Shown here in pieces: positions 7,514 to 20,293 of a stretch of 64,000 bases of DNA (position 1 is its first letter; the number at the start of each line of letters is the position of its first letter). The DNA lies in NCBI GenBank assembly GCA_913063165.1, contig CAJXZL010000001.1, positions 62,001 to 126,000 of the forward strand, in the 5' to 3' direction. This DNA is from an uncultured Saccharospirillaceae bacterium. Its GTDB lineage: Bacteria > Pseudomonadota > Gammaproteobacteria > Pseudomonadales > Natronospirillaceae. A model generated the notes under the pieces. The model was not told the DNA's origin. It saw nothing but the letters and a program-made list of their open reading frames with translations, and ran no database searches. Made by a program: the position numbers and the translations under genes.

Positions 7514-8503
7514 GTGTTTAACATCGGCCAATTTTACATCGACAATCCATTATTTTTAGCACCCATGGCGGGCGTCACAGACCTGCCCTTTCGCAAGCTG
7601 TGCCTATCCTTAGGTGCAGGGGTGGCAGTCGGTGAAATGGTGTCCAGTGATATTGATCTCTACGCTAGCCGCAAAAGCCGACTCAGGCTCATTCACGACC
7701 ACGAAATCGAACCCAGAATTATCCAAATAGCAGGCTCCTGCCCTGATAACATGGCAGAAGCTGCACGCAAGAATGTTGAACAGGGCGCTCAAATTATTGA
7801 CATCAATATGGGTTGTCCTGCCAAAAAGGTATTGAAAAAAGCCGCAGGCTCAGCACTGATGCAGGACGAGGGATTGGTCGCCGACATTCTCCGCGCCACG
7901 GTAAATGCTGTTTCCGTACCAGTAACGCTAAAAATACGCACGGGTTGGGCTAGAGATCAGCGCAACGCAGTGGCCATTGCGCGTATTGCTGAAGCAGAAG
8001 GTATTCAGATGCTGAGCGTTCATGGTCGAACCCGTGAAGACCGCTTTATGGGACAAGCGGAATACGACACCATTGCTGCCGTACAGTCCGCTGTTTCCAT
8101 ACCTGTTATAGCCAATGGTGATATCGACTCTGGTCCGAAAGCTGCAGAAGTGCTGAAGGCGACGGGCGCTCAGGGCCTGATGATCGGACGTGCCGCCCAG
8201 GGAAATCCATGGATTTTTAGAGAAATCAGCAGTTATCTTGCCACTGGACAGGCGGTACCACCGCCTGCTTTGTCAGAAATCAGTACGGTAATGCTCGGGC
8301 ACTTGCGTGCCTTACATGCCTTTTACGGTCCTGTGCAGGGTGTCCGTATCGCCCGGAAACACATCGCCTGGTACGTTAAATCCCGTATGACCACGACCCA
8401 ATTTTTACCTGAATTTTTCGCCATCGATGATCCTGATGGCCAAATTAGTCACCTCTCTCGTTATTTACAATCAATGGAATATGTACAGGAAGCCAACGCA
8501 TGA
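7514..8503 (+). CDS. dusB: tRNA-dihydrouridine synthase B
   Basis: 329 residues. FMN- and NADPH-dependent reduction of specific uridines in the tRNA D-loop. The TIM barrel begins LAPMAGVTDLPFR. The catalytic cysteine is C101 in INMGCPAKKV, and SVHGRTREDRFMGQAEYD and NGDIDSG are FMN/substrate-binding segments. The start is GTG (7514) in front of FNIGQFYIDN, the family-typical beginning. The stop codon overlaps the fis ATG (ATGA), the translational coupling expected for the dusB-fis operon, whose promoter in E. coli responds to growth rate. Confidence 0.96.
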   Translation: MFNIGQFYIDNPLFLAPMAGVTDLPFRKLCLSLGAGVAVGEMVSSDIDLYASRKSRLRLIHDHEIEPRIIQIAGSCPDNMAEAARKNVEQGAQIIDINMGCPAKKVLKKAAGSALMQDEGLVADILRATVNAVSVPVTLKIRTGWARDQRNAVAIARIAEAEGIQMLSVHGRTREDRFMGQAEYDTIAAVQSAVSIPVIANGDIDSGPKAAEVLKATGAQGLMIGRAAQGNPWIFREISSYLATGQAVPPPALSEISTVMLGHLRALHAFYGPVQGVRIARKHIAWYVKSRMTTTQFLPEFFAIDDPDGQISHLSRYLQSMEYVQEANA

Positions 8504-8784
8504 AATTGAACACCCTTGATGGGCAAAACACCGCTTTAGAATCGAAGCCCGTCGACAGTGCGCCACTGAAACACAGCGTAGAACGTGCTATGGATATTTA
8601 TTTCACCAACCTTGATGGTCAAGATGTCACCAACGTCTATCAAATGGTGTTAAACGAAGTAGAAGCACCCCTGCTACAGTCGGTCATGCTATACACCCGC
8701 AACAACCAAACAAAAGCCTCTGAAGTGCTCGGTTTGAACCGAGGTACCTTACGTAAAAAGCTCAAGCAATACGACTTACTATAA
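8500..8784 (+). CDS. fis: Nucleoid-associated DNA-binding protein Fis
   Basis: 94 residues (E. coli Fis has 98). Homodimeric DNA-bending protein that activates rRNA promoters and shapes the nucleoid in fast growth. The C-terminal helix-turn-helix reads [22 protein letters not shown]. The N-terminal part before the dimerisation helices has diverged from the enterobacterial protein, as is usual outside that family. Overlaps dusB by 4 bp. purH follows 31 bp later, possibly on the same transcript. Confidence 0.97.
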
Positions 8785-8815: not shown

Positions 8816-10402
8816 ATGCCATCTGCCCAACACCCGATTCGCCGTGCCCTGTTAAGTGTGTCAGATAAAACAGGTATTTTAGAACTCGCTCAAGCCTTGG
8901 TCGCTGAAAATGTCACCCTTTTATCCACTGGCGGCACCTTTAAGTTGTTGACCGATAATGGCATACCCGCCACAGAAGTGGCTGACTACACCGGATTCCC
9001 CGAGATGATGGATGGTCGTGTAAAAACCCTGCATCCAAAAATACATGGGGGCATTTTGGCCAGACGAGGCATGGATGACGCTGTCATGGCTGACGCCAAT
9101 ATCGAGGCAATCGACTTGGTAGTCGTCAACCTTTATCCCTTTAAAGCTACCGTAGAAAGGCCAGATTGCGATCTGGCCACCGCGATCGAGAACATTGACA
9201 TTGGCGGACCTACCATGGTGCGCTCCGCTGCTAAGAATCATGCTTGGGTGTCCATTGTCGTCAACCCAGATGACTACGGCCTGATCAAATCAGCGGTAGC
9301 CCAGGGTGGCACTACGCACAAGCAACGCTTTCGCTTGGCATTAAGCGCCTTTGAACACACCGCGGCCTATGATGGCATGATCGCAAATTACTTGGGTACG
9401 ATTGACCAAGACCGCGACGAACTGTCTACCGATGACCGTGGGCGTTTCCCCCATACATTTAACAGCCAGTTCCTATTATCGGAACAGCTACGTTACGGCG
9501 AAAACCCACACCAGTCAGCGGCGTTTTATGTCGATACCCAAAATGCCGAAGCATCCGTTGCAACGGCAAAACAAATACAGGGCAAATCGCTGTCTTATAA
9601 CAATGTTGCAGACACGGATGCCGCTTTAGAAACGGTCAAAAGCTTCGAACAACCTGCCTGTGTCATTGTGAAGCATGCCAACCCCTGTGGCGTTGCCGTT
9701 AGCGAAGATATTTTAGGCGCATATTTGTCTGCCTATAAGACTGACCCGACCTCGGCATTTGGTGGCATCATTGCATTCAACCGCCCATTGACCCTTGAGG
9801 TAGCGAACGCCATCCTCGAGCGACAGTTTGTTGAAGTCATTATTGCGCCAGAAATTGCGGACGACGCCGCAGCAGCATTGTCTGTGAAGCCTAACGTACG
9901 TGTGCTTGCCTGTGGCTATGGCGCCGCCAATAAAACCAACTGGGACTATAAAAAGGTCACGGGTGGATTGTTGGTCCAAGACCGAGACAACGGCATTATC
10001 GGGGCAGATGATCTTAAAATTGTCACCCAGATACAGCCCACAGCCGAGCAAATAAACGACCTACTCTTTGCTTGGAAAGTCTGTAAGTTTGTTAAATCAA
10101 ACGCCATCGTTTTTGCCAAAGCCAATGCCACGATCGGTATCGGTGCAGGCCAAATGAGTCGCGTTTATAGCACCAAGATTGCGGGTATAAAGGCTGCCGA
10201 TGAAAAGCTGGTGGTAGCCGGGTCCGTGATGGCGTCAGACGCCTTCTTTCCATTCCGCGATGGACTAGACCAAGCGGCTGAGGCTGGCATTAAAGCCGTC
10301 ATTCAGCCTGGTGGTTCAATGCGTGATGCAGAAGTCATTCAGGCCGCCGACGCACATGGCATTGCCATGGTATTCACTGGAATGCGCCACTTTAGACACT
10401 AA
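8816..10402 (+). CDS. purH: Bifunctional AICAR formyltransferase/IMP cyclohydrolase
   Basis: 528 residues. Performs the last two steps of de novo IMP synthesis: formyl transfer to AICAR, then ring closure. The N-terminal MGS-like cyclohydrolase domain (about 1-150) contains [23 protein letters not shown] and [14 protein letters not shown]. The C-terminal transformylase domain contains [14 protein letters not shown], the catalytic [11 protein letters not shown] and [12 protein letters not shown], and ends with [12 protein letters not shown]. purD follows 17 bp downstream, the common purHD operon. I see no convincing PurR operator upstream. Confidence 0.98.
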
Positions 10403-10419: not shown

Positions 10420-11715
10420 ATGAAAATGAATGTCATGATCATCGGCTCAGGTGGCCGCGAACATGCCCTAGCATGGAAGATGGCACAGTCATCCGACGTC
10501 CTGCATGTGTATGTTGCACCGGGCAATGCCGGCACCGAACTTGAAGCGGGTGTCAGCAACTTACCCATCGACGTGTTGGATTTCAAAGCGCTCGAATTGG
10601 CTGCTAGAACCCATAATATTGGATTGACACTGGTGGGCCCTGAAGTCCCACTCGTCGCTGGTATTGTCGATTATTTCGAGGCCCATGGGTTGCCTATTTT
10701 CGGGCCAAGCAAGGGCGCCGCCCAACTCGAAGGATCAAAAGCTTTCAGCAAAGATTTTTTGGCACGGCACAAAATCCCCACCGCTTTCTATTCGGTGTTC
10801 ACACAGGTACCAGACGCCGTCAGCTATATTAGAGAAAAGGGTGTTCCGATTGTCATAAAGGCTGACGGACTGGCAGCAGGAAAAGGTGTCTTTATCGCCC
10901 ATACAGAAGCTGAGGCCTTTGCTGCTGTCGAAAGTATTCTGTCTGGCAACCGTTTTGGTGATGCCGGTGCCCGAGTTGTGGTTGAAGAATTTTTGGTTGG
11001 CGAAGAAGCTAGCTTTATCGTCATGGTGGACGGTGATCATGTGCTGCCCATGGCGACATCGCAAGACCACAAAGCGCGCAATAACGGTGACACCGGTCCG
11101 AATACCGGTGGCATGGGCGCATATAGCCCCGCACCTATTGTTGATGACGCCATGCATCAAACCATCATGGACAGGGTTATCTACCCAACAGTGCGCGGTA
11201 TGAAAGCCGAAGGGAATGAATTTAAAGGTTTCCTCTACGCAGGCATTATGGTCAGCCCAGAGGGCACACCCAATGTATTAGAGTTTAATGTGCGTTTTGG
11301 CGATCCAGAAACACAGCCCATTATGATGCGTTTGAAATCTGACTTTTTGACCCTATGTTTGGCTGGCGTCAATAGGCAGCTAGATAAGGTCAGCGCGACC
11401 TGGGCACCGGAAGTTGCCATGGGCGTGGTCATGGCAGCGCCAGGATATCCAGACACCAGTGTAACAGGTGAACGGATCAGTCATATACCTGCTGCTGCCC
11501 CTGACTATAAAACCTTTCATGCGGGTACGAAATTCCAAGGCGACGACATAATATCTAACGGAGGCCGCGTATTGTGTGTTGTCGGATTAGGCGCCACAGC
11601 AAGCGAAGCCAGTGCCCTTGCCTATCGCCAGCTGGCTAAGATTGATTGGCCAACGGCGTACTACCGCACCGACATTGGTTACCGCGCCATCGCACGGGAA
11701 CAACAGGTCGACTGA
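10420..11715 (+). CDS. purD: Phosphoribosylamine-glycine ligase
   Basis: 431 residues. ATP-dependent joining of phosphoribosylamine and glycine, step two of purine synthesis. It opens with MIIGSGGREHALAWK. The ATP-grasp core includes VIKADGLAAGKGVFIA, FLVGEEASFIVMVDG, QDHKARNNGDTGPNTGGMG and LEFNVRFGDPETQ, which carry the nucleotide- and metal-binding residues. An AGGAG ribosome binding site precedes the ATG. Second gene of purHD; the next gene begins 115 bp later. Confidence 0.98.
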   Translation: MKMNVMIIGSGGREHALAWKMAQSSDVLHVYVAPGNAGTELEAGVSNLPIDVLDFKALELAARTHNIGLTLVGPEVPLVAGIVDYFEAHGLPIFGPSKGAAQLEGSKAFSKDFLARHKIPTAFYSVFTQVPDAVSYIREKGVPIVIKADGLAAGKGVFIAHTEAEAFAAVESILSGNRFGDAGARVVVEEFLVGEEASFIVMVDGDHVLPMATSQDHKARNNGDTGPNTGGMGAYSPAPIVDDAMHQTIMDRVIYPTVRGMKAEGNEFKGFLYAGIMVSPEGTPNVLEFNVRFGDPETQPIMMRLKSDFLTLCLAGVNRQLDKVSATWAPEVAMGVVMAAPGYPDTSVTGERISHIPAAAPDYKTFHAGTKFQGDDIISNGGRVLCVVGLGATASEASALAYRQLAKIDWPTAYYRTDIGYRAIAREQQVD

Positions 11716-11830: not shown

Positions 11831-14218
11831 TTGCACCTAGGTCAACGCACAGCCAATGCCACCGATTCACCACCTAAAACCCCGGCACAATCGCGTGGCT
11901 CAGCTCTGATTGCAGAATGGCTTATTTTTTGCTTAAAGCGCGCACGACTGTGCATAGCACTTGTCCTCGTCTGCGGAGCAACCTTAGCGCCATCGTCACT
12001 ATTTGCATTCACTTTGCCCCAGTATTTTGACAACACCAATGCAAAAATAACTGCTCAAGTGGATTTTCTTCGACCCTCCCAATTAGGCATTGACCCAAAA
12101 GACATTGCCTCGCTATATCAAAACCAATTTACGCCGCAGCAACGACAATTAATCCTGACCGGTTTTAACGAACCGGAGCTCTGGTTACGCGTCAAACTCA
12201 TTAATTACCTAGGAAAAGCAATTCCTGCAGTGATGGTGTTTGACACTGAATCAGATGCAAAGATTCAGCAATTCGACATCACCGGTACACGGCTCAACCA
12301 CGTGGGCGGCCCCTTACCATTCACCCTGACGGACAACCCAAACGCACTCATGGGTTTTCCGCTAACCATTGGCCCTGGCGCGGTGACGCTCTTTTTTAAG
12401 ATTGACAGCAAAGAGCCTGTCCATATGGAGATGTCGTTGCATAGCCCGGCATCTTATAACCAATTGTCCTATAAAAACCTTATTTTGGACCTACTGCAAT
12501 TACTGCCACTTTTGGTCATGAGTCTGGTGGTATTGGCATTGGGCATGTCGAGTCGCGACGGCAGCAGTCTGCTCATTTCTGGCATCATTTTGAGTGTTGC
12601 CATCAACAGAATGGCACAAGCGGGCCTCATTTCACCGCTGGTTTACCTTCCCTATATCGATCTCACCTTTCGCAATACAGCCAACTTGGTAACGACCATC
12701 TTTTTAATACTGTTGGTCAATGAAGTATTACCAGCCGTCACAAAAAACCATAAGCGCATTCGCGTCACGGCTGCTATATCGGTGTCATTGTTGGTGTTGT
12801 ATGGGATTTCCAGTCATTCGCTGCAATCGACTGGGCAATTGTTACTGTTCACCTTGGTAGTCAATAGCCTTTTTGCCGCCCGCCTATTGTTGTCGGGTAA
12901 GGCAGGCACAGGATGGATACGCTTTGGAATGGGTGGTTTGGTATTTTATAACCTGAGTACTTTAATGATGTTGCTTGGGGTGATTGATAACCTAGACTAC
13001 CTACATTTTTATGCCAAGTTAGTTCAAGATCTGGGGCTACTAGGTATGTCGCTTCATTCTGTAACCCGCATTATCCATCAACAGAATAACCAAGACGACA
13101 GCAATCTAAGCCACATATTGCAGATCATTTTGACTAAGGTTCACAAGGACATACAGATGCCTGCCAATGGCGTTCTGGAAATGTCGAAACTCTTAGTAGA
13201 AACAAACCTTTCTGTGAAACAGCATGAGCTTCTCAATACCATTCGCCTGTCTGGCGCAGAACTGGTGCAAAAATCCCACGAGATTGATGCCGTTAATCGG
13301 TTATATGGTAAGCAGGCCATGGGTGAACCTGAACCCGTCATGCTGTCAGAGTTCCTGCAAGATATCGTGAAAAGCTCCTACCAAGATGCTGCACTCAAGG
13401 GCGTGGAATTGATGGTTGAGATTCGGCCCAATGTGCCAAAAAAGACCCTGATACACAAAGACATGTTGAACTTGGTTCTGTCATCTCTGATTAGAAACGC
13501 CATTCAATATACCTTTGTCGGCGACATTGTGTTGACAGCATCACTGGATAACGCCGGCCACGTGCGCTTTCGCGTGACAGATTCTGGTGTCGGAATGTCA
13601 CCAGACAAAATGCGAACCCTTTTCCAGTTTAAAGAACGGCAATTGGGCAGCGCTTCAATTACCCTGCCACTGTGCAGTCAAATTATTGCGGCATTGGGTG
13701 GCAGACTGGGGGTGAGTAGCCAGACAAACGATGGCACATCATTCTGGTTTTCTCTCGATTTACCACAAATTGAAATAAGTGAAAAACAGACATCAAAAGG
13801 CACGCACATGGATCACAATGTAAAGATCCTAATTGCCGATGAAAACAAGAACAACCGGCGTGTGGTTCGCCACTTGGCTGAAAGTTTCGGCATCAGTGTC
13901 GACACCTGTGCTTCTGGTTCGGAAGCCATGGCGCTGCTACAGACCAAAGCCCAACTGGATCAACATTATGATTTTGTTCTTATCGACCAGAATTTGACAA
14001 ACATGTCAGCCACTCAGGTAGCGCATCGCATACATGAAAGCAGTACGCTCAGGTCGAGCTTGAAGATCATTTTAATGCATGCGCAATTTATTTCACCTGA
14101 CAACAGCGACCATTTGGATTTGGGCTTTGACGGCTTGTTACAAAAGCCAATCTCGTCTCAAAACCTGTATAATACGTTCAACGCTTTTATGCCTCAGATT
14201 GATCTGGATAAATCATGA
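11831..14218 (+). CDS. LadS-like hybrid sensor protein (7TMR-DISM, degenerate histidine kinase, receiver)
   Basis: 795 residues. Order: signal-like N-terminus (to about 60); extracytoplasmic 7TMR-DISMED2-like domain (about 65-200); seven membrane helices (about 215-400); kinase region (about 425-650); C-terminal receiver (about 665-790). The H-box reads H438-K-D-I-Q-M-P444. Aligned on the proline, the normal histidine position is K439 and H438 is displaced by one. The N-box is good (N556 in LIRNAIQYT) and G1 is DSGVGM, but G2 reads GSASITLPL instead of GTGLGL. The receiver keeps D719 and K772; its conserved Thr/Ser position appears to be His. The start is uncertain: TTG 11831 is the first plausible codon, and no in-frame ATG lies upstream before a stop. 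It overlaps coq7 by 4 bp. Likely a sensor that may work by interaction rather than autophosphorylation (inference). Confidence 0.82.
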   Translation: MHLGQRTANATDSPPKTPAQSRGSALIAEWLIFCLKRARLCIALVLVCGATLAPSSLFAFTLPQYFDNTNAKITAQVDFLRPSQLGIDPKDIASLYQNQFTPQQRQLILTGFNEPELWLRVKLINYLGKAIPAVMVFDTESDAKIQQFDITGTRLNHVGGPLPFTLTDNPNALMGFPLTIGPGAVTLFFKIDSKEPVHMEMSLHSPASYNQLSYKNLILDLLQLLPLLVMSLVVLALGMSSRDGSSLLISGIILSVAINRMAQAGLISPLVYLPYIDLTFRNTANLVTTIFLILLVNEVLPAVTKNHKRIRVTAAISVSLLVLYGISSHSLQSTGQLLLFTLVVNSLFAARLLLSGKAGTGWIRFGMGGLVFYNLSTLMMLLGVIDNLDYLHFYAKLVQDLGLLGMSLHSVTRIIHQQNNQDDSNLSHILQIILTKVHKDIQMPANGVLEMSKLLVETNLSVKQHELLNTIRLSGAELVQKSHEIDAVNRLYGKQAMGEPEPVMLSEFLQDIVKSSYQDAALKGVELMVEIRPNVPKKTLIHKDMLNLVLSSLIRNAIQYTFVGDIVLTASLDNAGHVRFRVTDSGVGMSPDKMRTLFQFKERQLGSASITLPLCSQIIAALGGRLGVSSQTNDGTSFWFSLDLPQIEISEKQTSKGTHMDHNVKILIADENKNNRRVVRHLAESFGISVDTCASGSEAMALLQTKAQLDQHYDFVLIDQNLTNMSATQVAHRIHESSTLRSSLKIILMHAQFISPDNSDHLDLGFDGLLQKPISSQNLYNTFNAFMPQIDLDKS

Positions 14219-14859
14219 AATCCCATAAACCTATATTGTCAGATGTGATCGTGGCCCATTTTGATCGGGCACTAAAAACTCTGCTACCTCACCCACAGGA
14301 CAACTTAGCGGCTGTCCCTGGATCTCAGACACCTGAGTCAGATTTAACCGATCAACAACGTCAACATGTAGCCGGCCTGATGCGCATAAACCACACGGGT
14401 GAAGTCTGCGCTCAAGGCTTGTACCAAGGCCAAGCACTTACTGCATCCCTTACCCATGTGTATCAGAGCATGGAAACTGCCGCCGATGAGGAAATCGCCC
14501 ACCTCATGTGGTGTGACACCCGCCTAAAACAACTTGAAGCACGGCCTAGCCTGATGAATCCACTGTGGTATGCGATGTCCTATAGCATGGGGGCACTCGC
14601 AGGCTTAACTGGCGACCAATACAGTCTGGGTTTTGTGGCTGCCACAGAAGAAAAAGTCTGTGAACATTTGGAACGCCACCTTGAGGACCTTCCCGAAGGG
14701 GACCATAAGACCCGGCTAATTTTACAACAAATGCTCGAAGATGAAGCGCGTCACGCAACCCAAGCAATCGCCGCAGGTGGCAAAGCACTGCCCGAACCGA
14801 TAAAAGCCTTAATGGCGCAGGTGGCCCGTGTGATGACCACCATTAGCTATCGGCTATAG
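14215..14859 (+). CDS. coq7: 2-octaprenyl-3-methyl-6-methoxy-1,4-benzoquinol hydroxylase (Coq7 type)
   Basis: 214 residues. Membrane-associated di-iron monooxygenase that hydroxylates demethoxyubiquinol, a late step in ubiquinone synthesis. Iron ligands are visible in HTGEVCAQ, the ADEEIAHLMWC helix, EEKVCEHLERH and EDEARHATQA (ExxH repeats). This carboxylate-bridged enzyme replaces the flavoprotein UbiF of E. coli in many gammaproteobacteria. Its ATG overlaps the stop of the upstream sensor gene (ATGA), implying translational coupling. The NRDE gene follows 9 bp later. Confidence 0.96.
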   Translation: MKSHKPILSDVIVAHFDRALKTLLPHPQDNLAAVPGSQTPESDLTDQQRQHVAGLMRINHTGEVCAQGLYQGQALTASLTHVYQSMETAADEEIAHLMWCDTRLKQLEARPSLMNPLWYAMSYSMGALAGLTGDQYSLGFVAATEEKVCEHLERHLEDLPEGDHKTRLILQQMLEDEARHATQAIAAGGKALPEPIKALMAQVARVMTTISYRL

Positions 14860-16444: not shown

Positions 16445-19400
16445 TTATTGGGTTTTGGGCGCGGTCAATGCATTATCAAACGCACGCAATAACTTGAATT
16501 GGGGCGCATCTGCAGAGCCAGTTATCTCATATTTCACCGAGGTAAACTTGGACAGTTCATTATTGAGTAGCCGCTCAGTGACAAACACGGCAAGCGCAAC
16601 TTGGGGCGCAAAACCTGCAACTAACGCGGCCAATGGAATGGCATTGGTCAAGGGTAGAGTGAAGATCATTTCAAAATCCATCAGATCTTTATTGAAATCA
16701 TAATCACCACCCAATTGCACTTTGGCGGCAGAACCATCCAACACAATGGGCTTTGATAAAATCATGCGCTCATTCTTAAAGGACAATGTGCCAGACACAG
16801 AGTCAAATCCTATGCCATCAGACACAACGTCATTAAAATCGAAGGCCAGTCGGCGCATTAGCATGGCTGGGTTTAAAATACTCAACAATTTTAGGCTTTC
16901 ATATTCCTGACCAACATTTAGGATGGCTCCATTAACAAAGGACAAGTTGATATCGCCAGCCAACGTCTTGGCATCATAGCCCAAAGGCGACCCTGGCCAG
17001 GACATTGCGGTCTTAATACGGCCAGATTGCGTTCTCACGTCGCTGGTTTGTTTCCAGGCGGCCAACACGTCCCCAAGATTGCCTATTCTGGCGTCCGCGG
17101 TTAACTGGGTCTTTGAGCCATTAGGGCCATAGGTCCACAGCACCTCGCCTGTGGCGGCAATACCCGTGATCGCGCCTTGTATTTTGGTGATTTTAACCCC
17201 GGCTGGAATCGGCAAGACCGTAGCGCTCCATTCGCCCAAGTCCTTTCCATCCAGTGTCACCCGTTTCACCTGCACAATCGCATTGGGCATGGATCTCGGG
17301 TCATAGTCACTAAGCGGATCAGACACAGCTGGTGATGCGTCATCTTTAGGCGCTGATTGTAATGTGACGAAATCGATATCGACGACCATGGTGGCATCTT
17401 TATCATGGCCCCACCCAAAGCTGCCTTGGATTTCATTGGCTTTGTAGGACGCAATCCAACCATCTCCGGACCGAGAACCGAGTATTTCAGCGCGATTCCA
17501 ACTTTCATTAAAGAAAATAAACTCACTGGCATTCAGGGTCACTTCTTGTATGAGGGAATCGAATCTGGGACCACCGCTCGGGGCAAGGGGTATGTAATCT
17601 TCATAGAGGGCTACCCATTCTTCAATCTGCAACTGCCAAGCATCACCATCGATGGAATCAATGGCCATATCCATGTATACACCCGGTTCCTTAGGAAGTG
17701 ACACTTTCAGACCTGTGGTCAAAATACCGCGATCAATGATGCCGTCTTGTAAGGCAAAAGCTGCCGAGAATTGATGGTCTAATAACGCGCTAACGTAGGT
17801 ATTATTGGCAGCGTCAATGTCAACATGGATCGCCAATGGCCATTCCTCTTCAGCCGTTTTATTCAATGGATAGGGATAAGGAAGCACGACGCCGACCAAT
17901 TCCGATGTGACATCGATGGCCACGCTATCATCATGCACGAGCAGTTCGCCTTGGTAGGAAGCCACTTGATCAATGCTGCGCAATAAAGCATCGTCTAACC
18001 ACAGGCCCAGATCACTTAAATTGGCGGCACCAGTTAACGATATCCGGGTATCGGCTAGGTCCTCACCCTCGCTTTTGATCGCAATCTGGGTCGGGTGCCC
18101 GAAAAACTGTGCGCTTAAGTTTTCTGCAACGGCGCCGGTCTTTTCATTCCACTGAAATCCGCCATTGATTGCTGATAGCGCCATCTCATACTCAGGCAAT
18201 ATCAAGGTTGTATTGGTAATCGTTGCGTTAACGCTGGCAACGGGTGCGCTACCATTTACAGGCACTGCCAAACTGACCTGCGCTGATACTGCACCATCTG
18301 GAATAATCCATTGATCAAATGGGTCACCGATAAAATTACGAATGGGGCTGCCCGTCAAATAGGCCAAGGCCTCAGTACTGGTGCCCGTGACATTAAATGC
18401 CACATTAATGTCAGCATCTGGCACCAAATCCACATCAACCCTACCATCAAGCAGCTGAAATCCCTGATGCTTAGCCTGAGCAACATCGATTCGCATGTGG
18501 CCATTTTCAAGCGTCAAATGGGCGTTGACGTCTGTGATATCAGCCCAATCTGGTAAAAAACTGAGACTGCCACGGTCAATATCTACATCCAGCAGTACCG
18601 ATGACGCCATAGGGGTGGTTTTTACCGTGGGCAGCGATAGCGTCAAATTACCTCGTGTCACCTCTGCCGTACTCACGCTATCGAGTATCCATTCACGGCT
18701 TTCCAAATTCATCGATAGTGGCAAAAACGTCGACAGTCGGTCTTGGTCAGATCGATCAAATTCTAAATGGAACTCAAACCGAGGCTCTCGAACGGCCCAA
18801 TCGCCGGGTTGTGGTGACAACACGCTGAATGCCAACGAGATATTGTCCACGCCAGAGATTTCAGTGTGTAGATTGTCGCTGGCCAAAAACAAACCACGCT
18901 CGGGCGACCACCGCCATGTAAGGCCACCAGAGGTGTTGCTCAGAAAGACTGGCGCGTCAAACACCTTGGGCAAATCGATCCAAGCATCGGACGGGGCAAT
19001 TTTTAGATAACCGCCAGCGAGTGTCATATCCACGAAACCGTCAATGCCTTTAAGGCCGGGGACGCCGCGCCACGGATTGATTTCGGCGTCTTCAAAGCGA
19101 CCCTGGATCAACAACTGGTCAATAGGGTCGGCGGCTGGTGTCCATAGGATACGGGAGTTGAGTAGCTTTCCGCTCGGTTCCAATCCCTTCAATACGCGAT
19201 TATCAGTCATCACTTCGCCCAGTGCAGATAGCAATCCAACGTCCACTTTATCGGATAAGAGCTCCACACTGTCTGGGCTGTAATACAACTGGTGCAGGCT
19301 GTGCTGCCATTGTTCACCCTTGTACTGGAACGATACATTGTCTAACCAAGCAAAGGTTTCATCTGCTGCGATAGTGGCAGTTAATTCGGTATGGATGTTC

Positions 19401-20293
19401 TGAACAGCGACCTGTCGTTTGTCTCGCGTTACCGCGATTTCTGGGATATCTAACCGGCTACGTACCTCAACGACGGTGCCAGCATCTAACGTCAGCCAGG
19501 CCTCAAGATCGGTGCTCAGCCGCGACAAACCGATATTGCCTGGCAAAAACCCCGTCCAAGCACTCCAGTCAAAGTATTCTTGTCTTAAATAGATGCGTCC
19601 CGCTGGAGCCGATAGCCATTGGTCAAGTTCAGCGACCAGCCCAATATTGGCCGACTGTTGTCCGGAAAATATCCATCCGTCGAGAGACAGTTTTTTGGTA
19701 TCAAACACACTTTCTAACCAAGCGTGTTCGATTTGGACGATTAGGGGTTCGGTGTCATCAACCGCTAAAATCACCGCTAAATTGCTCAACGCGATATGGT
19801 CTTGAATCAGCAACGGCTGCAGCCGTTCAAACGCTGTCTTGACAGAAACCCCGTCATTATTGAGCACGTTATTATCGGCAGACTTCACCACCCAATCCGA
19901 CAATGACCAACCACCGTCGGTTGACACCTTGGTGACGATTACCCGTATGTCTGAGAAGGTAATATTCGAGGCGACAAAACGGCCCTGAATAAAAGAGGAC
20001 AGCAGCGCGGGCACGACTTCTATGCCCCCTATTTCGAATTCCTGCCCGATGCGGACTTGTTTGATAATGACTTTGGGGCCGAACCCTTCCCAGGCACCAG
20101 TCAAATTACCTATGTCAACTTCAACGCCCAAGATGTCCGACACCTGATCTTGCACCAGAACGCGATAATCACTGACAAGAGTAACCATTTGACGACCAAC
20201 GATAATATAGACGGACAACAAGATAATCAGCATCGCCAACATACGCACTGCGCTGTTGATCAATCCTGATTTCAGTCTTTTGCCCTTAGTCAC
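16445..20293 (-). CDS. yhdP: YhdP family AsmA-like envelope protein
   Basis: 1282 residues, typical length. A basic N-terminus and one inner-membrane helix at about 15-35 (VRMLAMLIILLSVYIIVG) are followed by a huge beta-rich periplasmic region. In E. coli YhdP is an AsmA-like protein that, with TamB and YdbH, moves phospholipids from inner to outer membrane. The N-terminal VEVDIGNLTGAWEGFGPKV block and the C-terminal region with GGDYDFNKDLMDFEMIFTLP are family features. GTG 20293 has an AGGGG ribosome binding site 8 bp upstream. It sits directly after rng and ends just before the nitrilase gene, the usual order. Confidence 0.94.
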   Translation of the reverse strand: MTKGKRLKSGLINSAVRMLAMLIILLSVYIIVGRQMVTLVSDYRVLVQDQVSDILGVEVDIGNLTGAWEGFGPKVIIKQVRIGQEFEIGGIEVVPALLSSFIQGRFVASNITFSDIRVIVTKVSTDGGWSLSDWVVKSADNNVLNNDGVSVKTAFERLQPLLIQDHIALSNLAVILAVDDTEPLIVQIEHAWLESVFDTKKLSLDGWIFSGQQSANIGLVAELDQWLSAPAGRIYLRQEYFDWSAWTGFLPGNIGLSRLSTDLEAWLTLDAGTVVEVRSRLDIPEIAVTRDKRQVAVQNIHTELTATIAADETFAWLDNVSFQYKGEQWQHSLHQLYYSPDSVELLSDKVDVGLLSALGEVMTDNRVLKGLEPSGKLLNSRILWTPAADPIDQLLIQGRFEDAEINPWRGVPGLKGIDGFVDMTLAGGYLKIAPSDAWIDLPKVFDAPVFLSNTSGGLTWRWSPERGLFLASDNLHTEISGVDNISLAFSVLSPQPGDWAVREPRFEFHLEFDRSDQDRLSTFLPLSMNLESREWILDSVSTAEVTRGNLTLSLPTVKTTPMASSVLLDVDIDRGSLSFLPDWADITDVNAHLTLENGHMRIDVAQAKHQGFQLLDGRVDVDLVPDADINVAFNVTGTSTEALAYLTGSPIRNFIGDPFDQWIIPDGAVSAQVSLAVPVNGSAPVASVNATITNTTLILPEYEMALSAINGGFQWNEKTGAVAENLSAQFFGHPTQIAIKSEGEDLADTRISLTGAANLSDLGLWLDDALLRSIDQVASYQGELLVHDDSVAIDVTSELVGVVLPYPYPLNKTAEEEWPLAIHVDIDAANNTYVSALLDHQFSAAFALQDGIIDRGILTTGLKVSLPKEPGVYMDMAIDSIDGDAWQLQIEEWVALYEDYIPLAPSGGPRFDSLIQEVTLNASEFIFFNESWNRAEILGSRSGDGWIASYKANEIQGSFGWGHDKDATMVVDIDFVTLQSAPKDDASPAVSDPLSDYDPRSMPNAIVQVKRVTLDGKDLGEWSATVLPIPAGVKITKIQGAITGIAATGEVLWTYGPNGSKTQLTADARIGNLGDVLAAWKQTSDVRTQSGRIKTAMSWPGSPLGYDAKTLAGDINLSFVNGAILNVGQEYESLKLLSILNPAMLMRRLAFDFNDVVSDGIGFDSVSGTLSFKNERMILSKPIVLDGSAAKVQLGGDYDFNKDLMDFEMIFTLPLTNAIPLAALVAGFAPQVALAVFVTERLLNNELSKFTSVKYEITGSADAPQFKLLRAFDNALTAPKTQ

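Follow-up and report, generated by a model that had tools for sequence, protein, structure and literature searches.

The window, as the whole 64,000-nucleotide stretch of DNA analysed here is called, encodes a hybrid sensor that is the RetS orthologue of this bacterium, located at its conserved place beside purD and coq7. RetS is a textbook example of the control of one sensor kinase by another. The acceptor position of the window protein is occupied by lysine (Lys439) instead of histidine, and the protein is predicted to be a catalytically dead RetS that could act only by DHp contact with the GacS of the same genome (probability about 0.55).

The purD-linked sensor and its genomic place

The gene order in the window is dusB-fis-purH-purD-[RetS]-coq7 (Table 1). 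The start codon of the sensor is uncertain, because no in-frame ATG or GTG, but only TTG, is found upstream of the signal-like segment. DISMED2 and the HATPase domain score over their cut-offs, the 7TM region scores below its own, and the DHp fold is seen in an AF2 model. HisKA (PF00512) gave no Pfam match at E<=1 in the window sensor, whereas it was matched in all four same-family relatives scanned. A promoter and terminator scan around the gene gave signals not above those of shuffled sequences, an Rfam search of the 64-kb window gave no match, and a scan of genome contigs with the window sensor as query found no relative.

Table 1. Positions of the sensor gene, its domains and its neighbours in the window
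Feature	Positions	Strand	Basis or remark
dusB	7514..8503	+	NCBIfam TIGR00737 over cut-off
fis	8500..8784	+	NCBIfam NF001659 over cut-off
purH	8816..10402	+	NCBIfam TIGR00355 over cut-off
purD, upstream neighbour of retS	10420..11715	+	NCBIfam TIGR00877 over cut-off
RetS-type 7TMR-DISM hybrid sensor, 795 aa	11831..14218	+	TTG start, uncertain
7TMR-DISMED2, periplasmic, residues 76-204	12056..12442	+	Pfam PF07696 33.3 bits, cut-off 22
7TM region, residues 226-392	12506..13006	+	Pfam PF07695 23.4 bits, under cut-off 29
DHp region, residues 425-505	13103..13345	+	alignment A1; AF2 helices
H-box, altered: H438-K-D-I-Q-M-P444	13142..13162	+	codons CAC = H438, AAG = K439
HATPase, residues 544-645; G2 606-614	13460..13765	+	Pfam PF02518 60 bits
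Receiver, single, residues 666-782, REC1 equivalent	13826..14176	+	Pfam PF00072 53.5 bits
coq7, ATG overlapping sensor stop	14215..14859	+	NCBIfam NF033656 over cut-off

The initial annotation described the protein as LadS-like. This identity is suggested by the layout (DISMED2-7TM-kinase-single REC) and by the similar length of P. aeruginosa LadS, which has about 795 residues, but it is rejected by trees and by purD synteny, both of which give RetS. In a tree of 28 rows, 20 of them from the purD-linked set and with the window row omitted as a long branch, the linked families and Pseudomonas RetS stand on one side of a branch with 100/100 support in two alignments, while LadS and the unlinked LadS-like kinases of the same family stand on the other. 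A clade uniting the linked proteins of the same family (f1) with LadS was rejected in the whole-length alignment (p-AU 5e-80). The LadS label was given to four candidates on the strength of a full-length single-receiver match and, for the three whose position was listed, of the acceptor histidine at 427-429 from the first methionine (H428 in PMC4866733). The window sensor itself is sister to L009 of genome G002 (100/93), inside the linked family, in a larger tree of 96/97 rows that covers the short DHp-CA region only. Since the linked proteins do not form a single clade in that tree (96 rows), it is synteny and the longer alignments that carry the assignment as an orthologue.

In P. aeruginosa, purD is PA4855 and retS is PA4856 (PMC9901815), and the window sensor likewise lies directly downstream of purD. 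A purH-purD-linked protein of family f20 (L170) matches crystallised RetS (PDB 6dk8) with an E value of 1.4e-115, indicating that this family is Pseudomonas or a close relative. The receiver provides a further point of orientation: among the matches listed, REC1 is closer to the window receiver than REC2 in 71 of 71 linked proteins with two receivers, as it was in 30 of 30 in an earlier sample of matches listed. Hence, the second receiver of RetS is missing in the window sensor. By profile, the 109 linked proteins among the matches listed have one receiver in 37 cases, two in 71 and none in one. A Pfam search of the genome for 7TM regions had a GGDEF protein as its sole match and is no measure of the absence of LadS, because the window's own sensor was missed as well. 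The same genome encodes a 7TMR-DISM protein with a C-terminal GGDEF-type domain (GGEEF) and no kinase (L209:940-2790).

Twenty-two genomes of the same family were searched, and 19 of them contain a sensor match at E<=1e-30. When the more eroded sensor that G007 carries at the same locus is included, a purD-linked sensor is present in 20/22, and coq7 follows it in 19 of these 20 loci (it was not seen in L022). In the two remaining genomes, G001 and G004, the sensor was not matched at E<=1e-30 and coq7 was not matched either, possibly due to one deletion of both genes. The initial annotation considered the linkage to coq7 unexpected, which is not borne out: purD upstream and coq7 downstream flank 60 of the 109 linked RetS genes among the matches listed. 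Furthermore, out of 80 coq7 loci of named genomes (L049-L128), 20 have purD directly in front of coq7, at no more than 300 bp and with no kinase between the two. Several of the kinase-free loci are titled Halieaceae or Spongiibacteraceae. Judged from these arrangements, the coq7 neighbourhood is old, with RetS inside it.

The sensor stop does overlap the coq7 start, as initially noted (ATGA at 14215-14218). This overlap, the frequent purD-RetS-coq7 order and the absence of coq7 matches from both same-family genomes without a sensor match could reflect a functional coupling that links quinone supply to Gac signalling. Such a coupling is nevertheless highly improbable, as purD and coq7 are neighbours without a kinase in a quarter of the coq7 loci, Pseudomonas RetS adjoins purD without coq7 in the stretches examined, and a single deletion could take out both genes; a literature search of open-licence full texts found no paper tying bacterial RetS to coq7. 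The purD-RetS-coq7 locus is widespread in this order and could be used to locate RetS genes that similarity searches miss.

Catalytic residues of the sensor and its relatives

Alignment A1 contains the window sensor and 15 same-family homologues. K436 and P444 are invariant and stand eight positions apart, without gaps, in all 16 rows, and this constant spacing places Lys439 in the acceptor column. The window H-box reads K436-V-H438-K439-D-I-Q-M-P444, whereas the other rows follow the pattern K-[IL]-N-H-[DE]-[LMI]-R-[TGS]-P, so the claim that lysine occupies the acceptor position, with a histidine one residue before it, holds. An AF2 model of residues 420-795 (pLDDT 80.1, four-row alignment) had ShkA, GacS and RetS as its first Foldseek matches. 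The match ranges for RetS and GacS, given as end residues only, imply different registers, and Lys439 was therefore placed without recourse to structure. The H-box carries several changes, all in frame and with zero net indel, which rules out a sequencing error or a frameshift there; the change is real.

Other parts of the initial description were also confirmed. The N-box asparagine and G1 are intact (N556, D584, G586 and G588 are present), G2 is degenerate (GSASITLPL, residues 606-614), and the receiver retains D719 and K772, together with D670. Beyond that description, the H-box carries R442Q and T/G/S443M relative to the A1 relatives, the N-box aspartate is replaced by Arg555, the switch Thr/Ser of the receiver by His750, and the acidic pair DD by DE.

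A shift of the register by one residue, with His438 as the new acceptor of a still active kinase, is very unlikely. His438 adjoins the lost histidine, and the conservation of N556, D584, G586, G588 and D719 would suit an active enzyme, but no indel occurs between K436 and P444 in the 16 rows and the His438 column contains asparagine in the other 15. Furthermore, R442 and the residue preceding the proline have changed as well, the receiver switch threonine is lost, and G2 is degenerate here, with a weaker form of this degeneration across the family members that keep the acceptor histidine.

The frequency of acceptor loss was determined in two samples of linked proteins. They were taken from the top-scoring matches listed for 194 and for 390 genomes, with identical C-terminal ends merged before counting; the larger count omits loci of the window's own genome except the window gene. 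Because this sampling favours high scores, relatives with strong erosion are under-represented. Among the matches listed, histidine was found in 56 of 58 linked proteins of the smaller sample (the exceptions being one Lys, in the window, and one Thr) and in 39/39 unlinked kinases. In the larger sample, again among the matches listed, it was found in 105/109 linked proteins and 53/53 unlinked kinases, the four linked exceptions being Lys (window, L143), Thr (L202), Ser (L211) and Gln (L287). These counts reject the idea that homologues linked to coq7 typically lack the acceptor. Homologues next to coq7 with a normal H-box had been named initially as evidence that would speak against the proposal. 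Within the same family, each of the 19 other purD-linked homologues that were found has the acceptor histidine, which refutes a shared trait but leaves the change in the window as a real one. Nor do the H-box and G2 changes form one shared trait, because a weak G2 box is common to the whole family, including members that keep the histidine, and acceptor loss is not.

From the distribution of these sequences, the acceptor appears to have been lost about three times. The Thr and Ser proteins (L202:1964-4828 and L211:1378-4218) belong to one genus of family f30 and lie in a purD-sensor-coq7 locus; they are only 46% identical, indicating that an acceptor-less RetS has lasted there. L287:2022-4868 (-) is a purD-linked RetS with glutamine at the acceptor position (SQDLRTP) and a kept N-box and G1, representing a further independent loss. 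A different pattern of erosion is seen in L317:2432-4687 of G007, also in a purD-sensor-coq7 locus, in which the histidine is kept and the H-box proline and arginine as well as the N-box are lost; this protein was found outside the linked sample and is not among the 109. In open-licence full texts, no title or start of an abstract was found that names an acceptor-less RetS.

The full set of N556, D584, G586 and G588 occurs in only 28/109 linked proteins, compared with 43/53 unlinked kinases, among the matches listed. Loss of the ATP site is thus common in RetS, and the window sensor is unusual in having kept this site and lost the acceptor. The N-box and G1 are kept in three of four acceptor-less and 25 of 105 histidine-keeping proteins among the matches listed (Fisher p 0.051, with rows that are not independent), and on account of this p value and the non-independent rows the two features are not claimed to be associated.

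Selective constraint, possible decay and the predicted mode of action

Residues invariant in the 15 other same-family proteins are unevenly kept in the window sensor: 17/18 in the ATPase domain, 11/19 in DHp and 10/21 in the receiver (Fisher test of ATPase against the rest, p 0.0022). In leave-one-out controls, other family members lose at most three invariant residues per domain. Ratios of the end branches of the window and L009, computed from branch lengths over 12 common genomes, are 2.1 for purD, 1.9 for coq7, 1.5 for the sensor domain and 1.9 for 7TM, versus 4.5 for DHp, 3.3 for ATPase and 4.2 for the receiver; the DHp end branch measures 1.49 in the window and 0.33 in its sister, and that of purD 0.43 and 0.20. 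Since the ratios differ by domain, relaxation falls on the signalling part and not on the sensor.

The fast evolution of the cytoplasmic part also fits decay of the gene, the main rival of the contact-only reading, in which RetS function is being lost from a 2.55 Mb genome and the acceptor loss is a symptom of relaxed constraint. Its end branch in the larger DHp-CA tree (1.71 versus 0.26 in the sister), the acceleration of DHp, CA and REC beyond purD and coq7, the HisKA profile that matches no longer, TTG as the sole start codon, and the two family members (G001, G004) without sensor and coq7 matches are all in line with decay. It is, however, opposed by the open frame of 795 codons without a stop and by a third-position GC of 0.511, similar to that of the neighbours (0.493-0.526). 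The losses are concentrated rather than spread, with the ATPase invariants nearly complete, and the sensor and 7TM branch ratios are close to those of purD and coq7. Decay is a possible but doubtful explanation.

Three mechanisms are described for P. aeruginosa RetS in PMC5992135: phosphate is drained from GacS by D858 of REC2, the receiver of GacS is dephosphorylated by the transmitter phosphatase motif HExxT, and autophosphorylation of GacS is prevented by the RetS kinase core. According to the same source, this RetS cannot autophosphorylate and still inhibits GacS through its kinase core when both phosphate-removing mechanisms are disabled. In the RetS-GacS complex (PDB 7n0e), RetS replaces the DHp-DHp interface of GacS (PMC12148439). 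According to the discussion in PMC12148439, it is an open question why RetS employs three of them.

In the window sensor, the acceptor histidine, its H-box neighbours and the receiver switch threonine are lost, and KDIQM stands in place of HExxT. The protein would consequently have neither histidine autophosphorylation nor an HExxT-type transmitter phosphatase activity. Because its single receiver corresponds to REC1, the seat of the first mechanism, the REC2 drain, is missing from the window family, and H439K together with M443 removes the motif of the second. As the autophosphorylation and phosphatase motifs are lost and REC2 is absent, only direct contact is likely to remain, in which DHp-DHp pairing with GacS would block GacS autophosphorylation; this third mechanism has no known need for an acceptor histidine. 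Periplasmic DISMED2 would be the sensor that sets the contact state, perhaps together with bound nucleotide, and D719 is a putative residual phosphate sink. One point against the contact-only reading is that erosion has also reached the DHp helix, where contact would presumably be made.

The genome supplies candidate partners. It encodes a BarA/GacS-type kinase of 929 residues (L189) with a canonical H-box, although its match to the BarA model is under the curated cut-off (746.8 vs 890), as well as a GacA that passes its curated cut-off and a single CsrA. The initial annotation had proposed a protein that binds nucleotide without autophosphorylating and acts through a partner. The absence of conventional histidine autophosphorylation is supported by Lys439 at the acceptor column, nucleotide binding is plausible with the N-box/G1 site kept, and action via a partner is the most plausible mode; GacS/BarA, GacA and CsrA are all present in the genome. 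Beside csrA, short repeated ORFs with one recurring peptide (L190:3463-4016) probably result from translating a tandem tRNA array.

A more far-reaching interpretation, which can be put forward only tentatively, is a separation-of-function RetS, a nucleotide-binding pseudokinase whose sole output is the sensor-gated DHp-DHp capture of GacS. If true, lineages would keep the RetS-GacS clamp and drop each phosphate-handling step by different lesions, namely Lys, Thr/Ser or Gln at the acceptor and loss of the ATP site in most others. Naturally devoid of the acceptor histidine, the phosphatase threonine and REC2, the window RetS would separate contact from the other mechanisms with no need for engineered mutants.

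The window sensor resembles P. aeruginosa RetS (PA4856; PDB 6dk7/6dk8/7n0e) in its place after purD, the DISMED2-7TM-DHp-HATPase-REC1 layout, degenerate G-boxes of the HATPase domain and the shared side of a well supported branch. It differs in having Lys and Met where P. aeruginosa RetS has the His and Thr of HExxT, in lacking REC2 with D858, and in its better kept N-box and G1. P. aeruginosa LadS, on the other side of the 100/100 branch, has an active acceptor: it autophosphorylates on H428 and relays phosphate through D718 to H2 of GacS (PMC4866733), whereas the window sensor has Lys439. The f30 proteins and L287 share with it the linkage to purD, the missing acceptor histidine and a mostly kept N-box and G1, but they carry Thr/Ser or Gln, possess two receivers and derive from independent losses. 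A dead kinase proposed to work via a live partner also recalls ChrS of Corynebacterium glutamicum, a dead histidine kinase that heterodimerises with a live one (PMC9491836); ChrS, however, belongs to an unrelated family and arose by a frameshift in the CA domain during laboratory evolution.

Elsewhere in the window, positions 16448-20293 (-) encode a YhdP-family protein, whose TIGR02099 match of 508.1 bits lies below the curated cut-off of 519.15.
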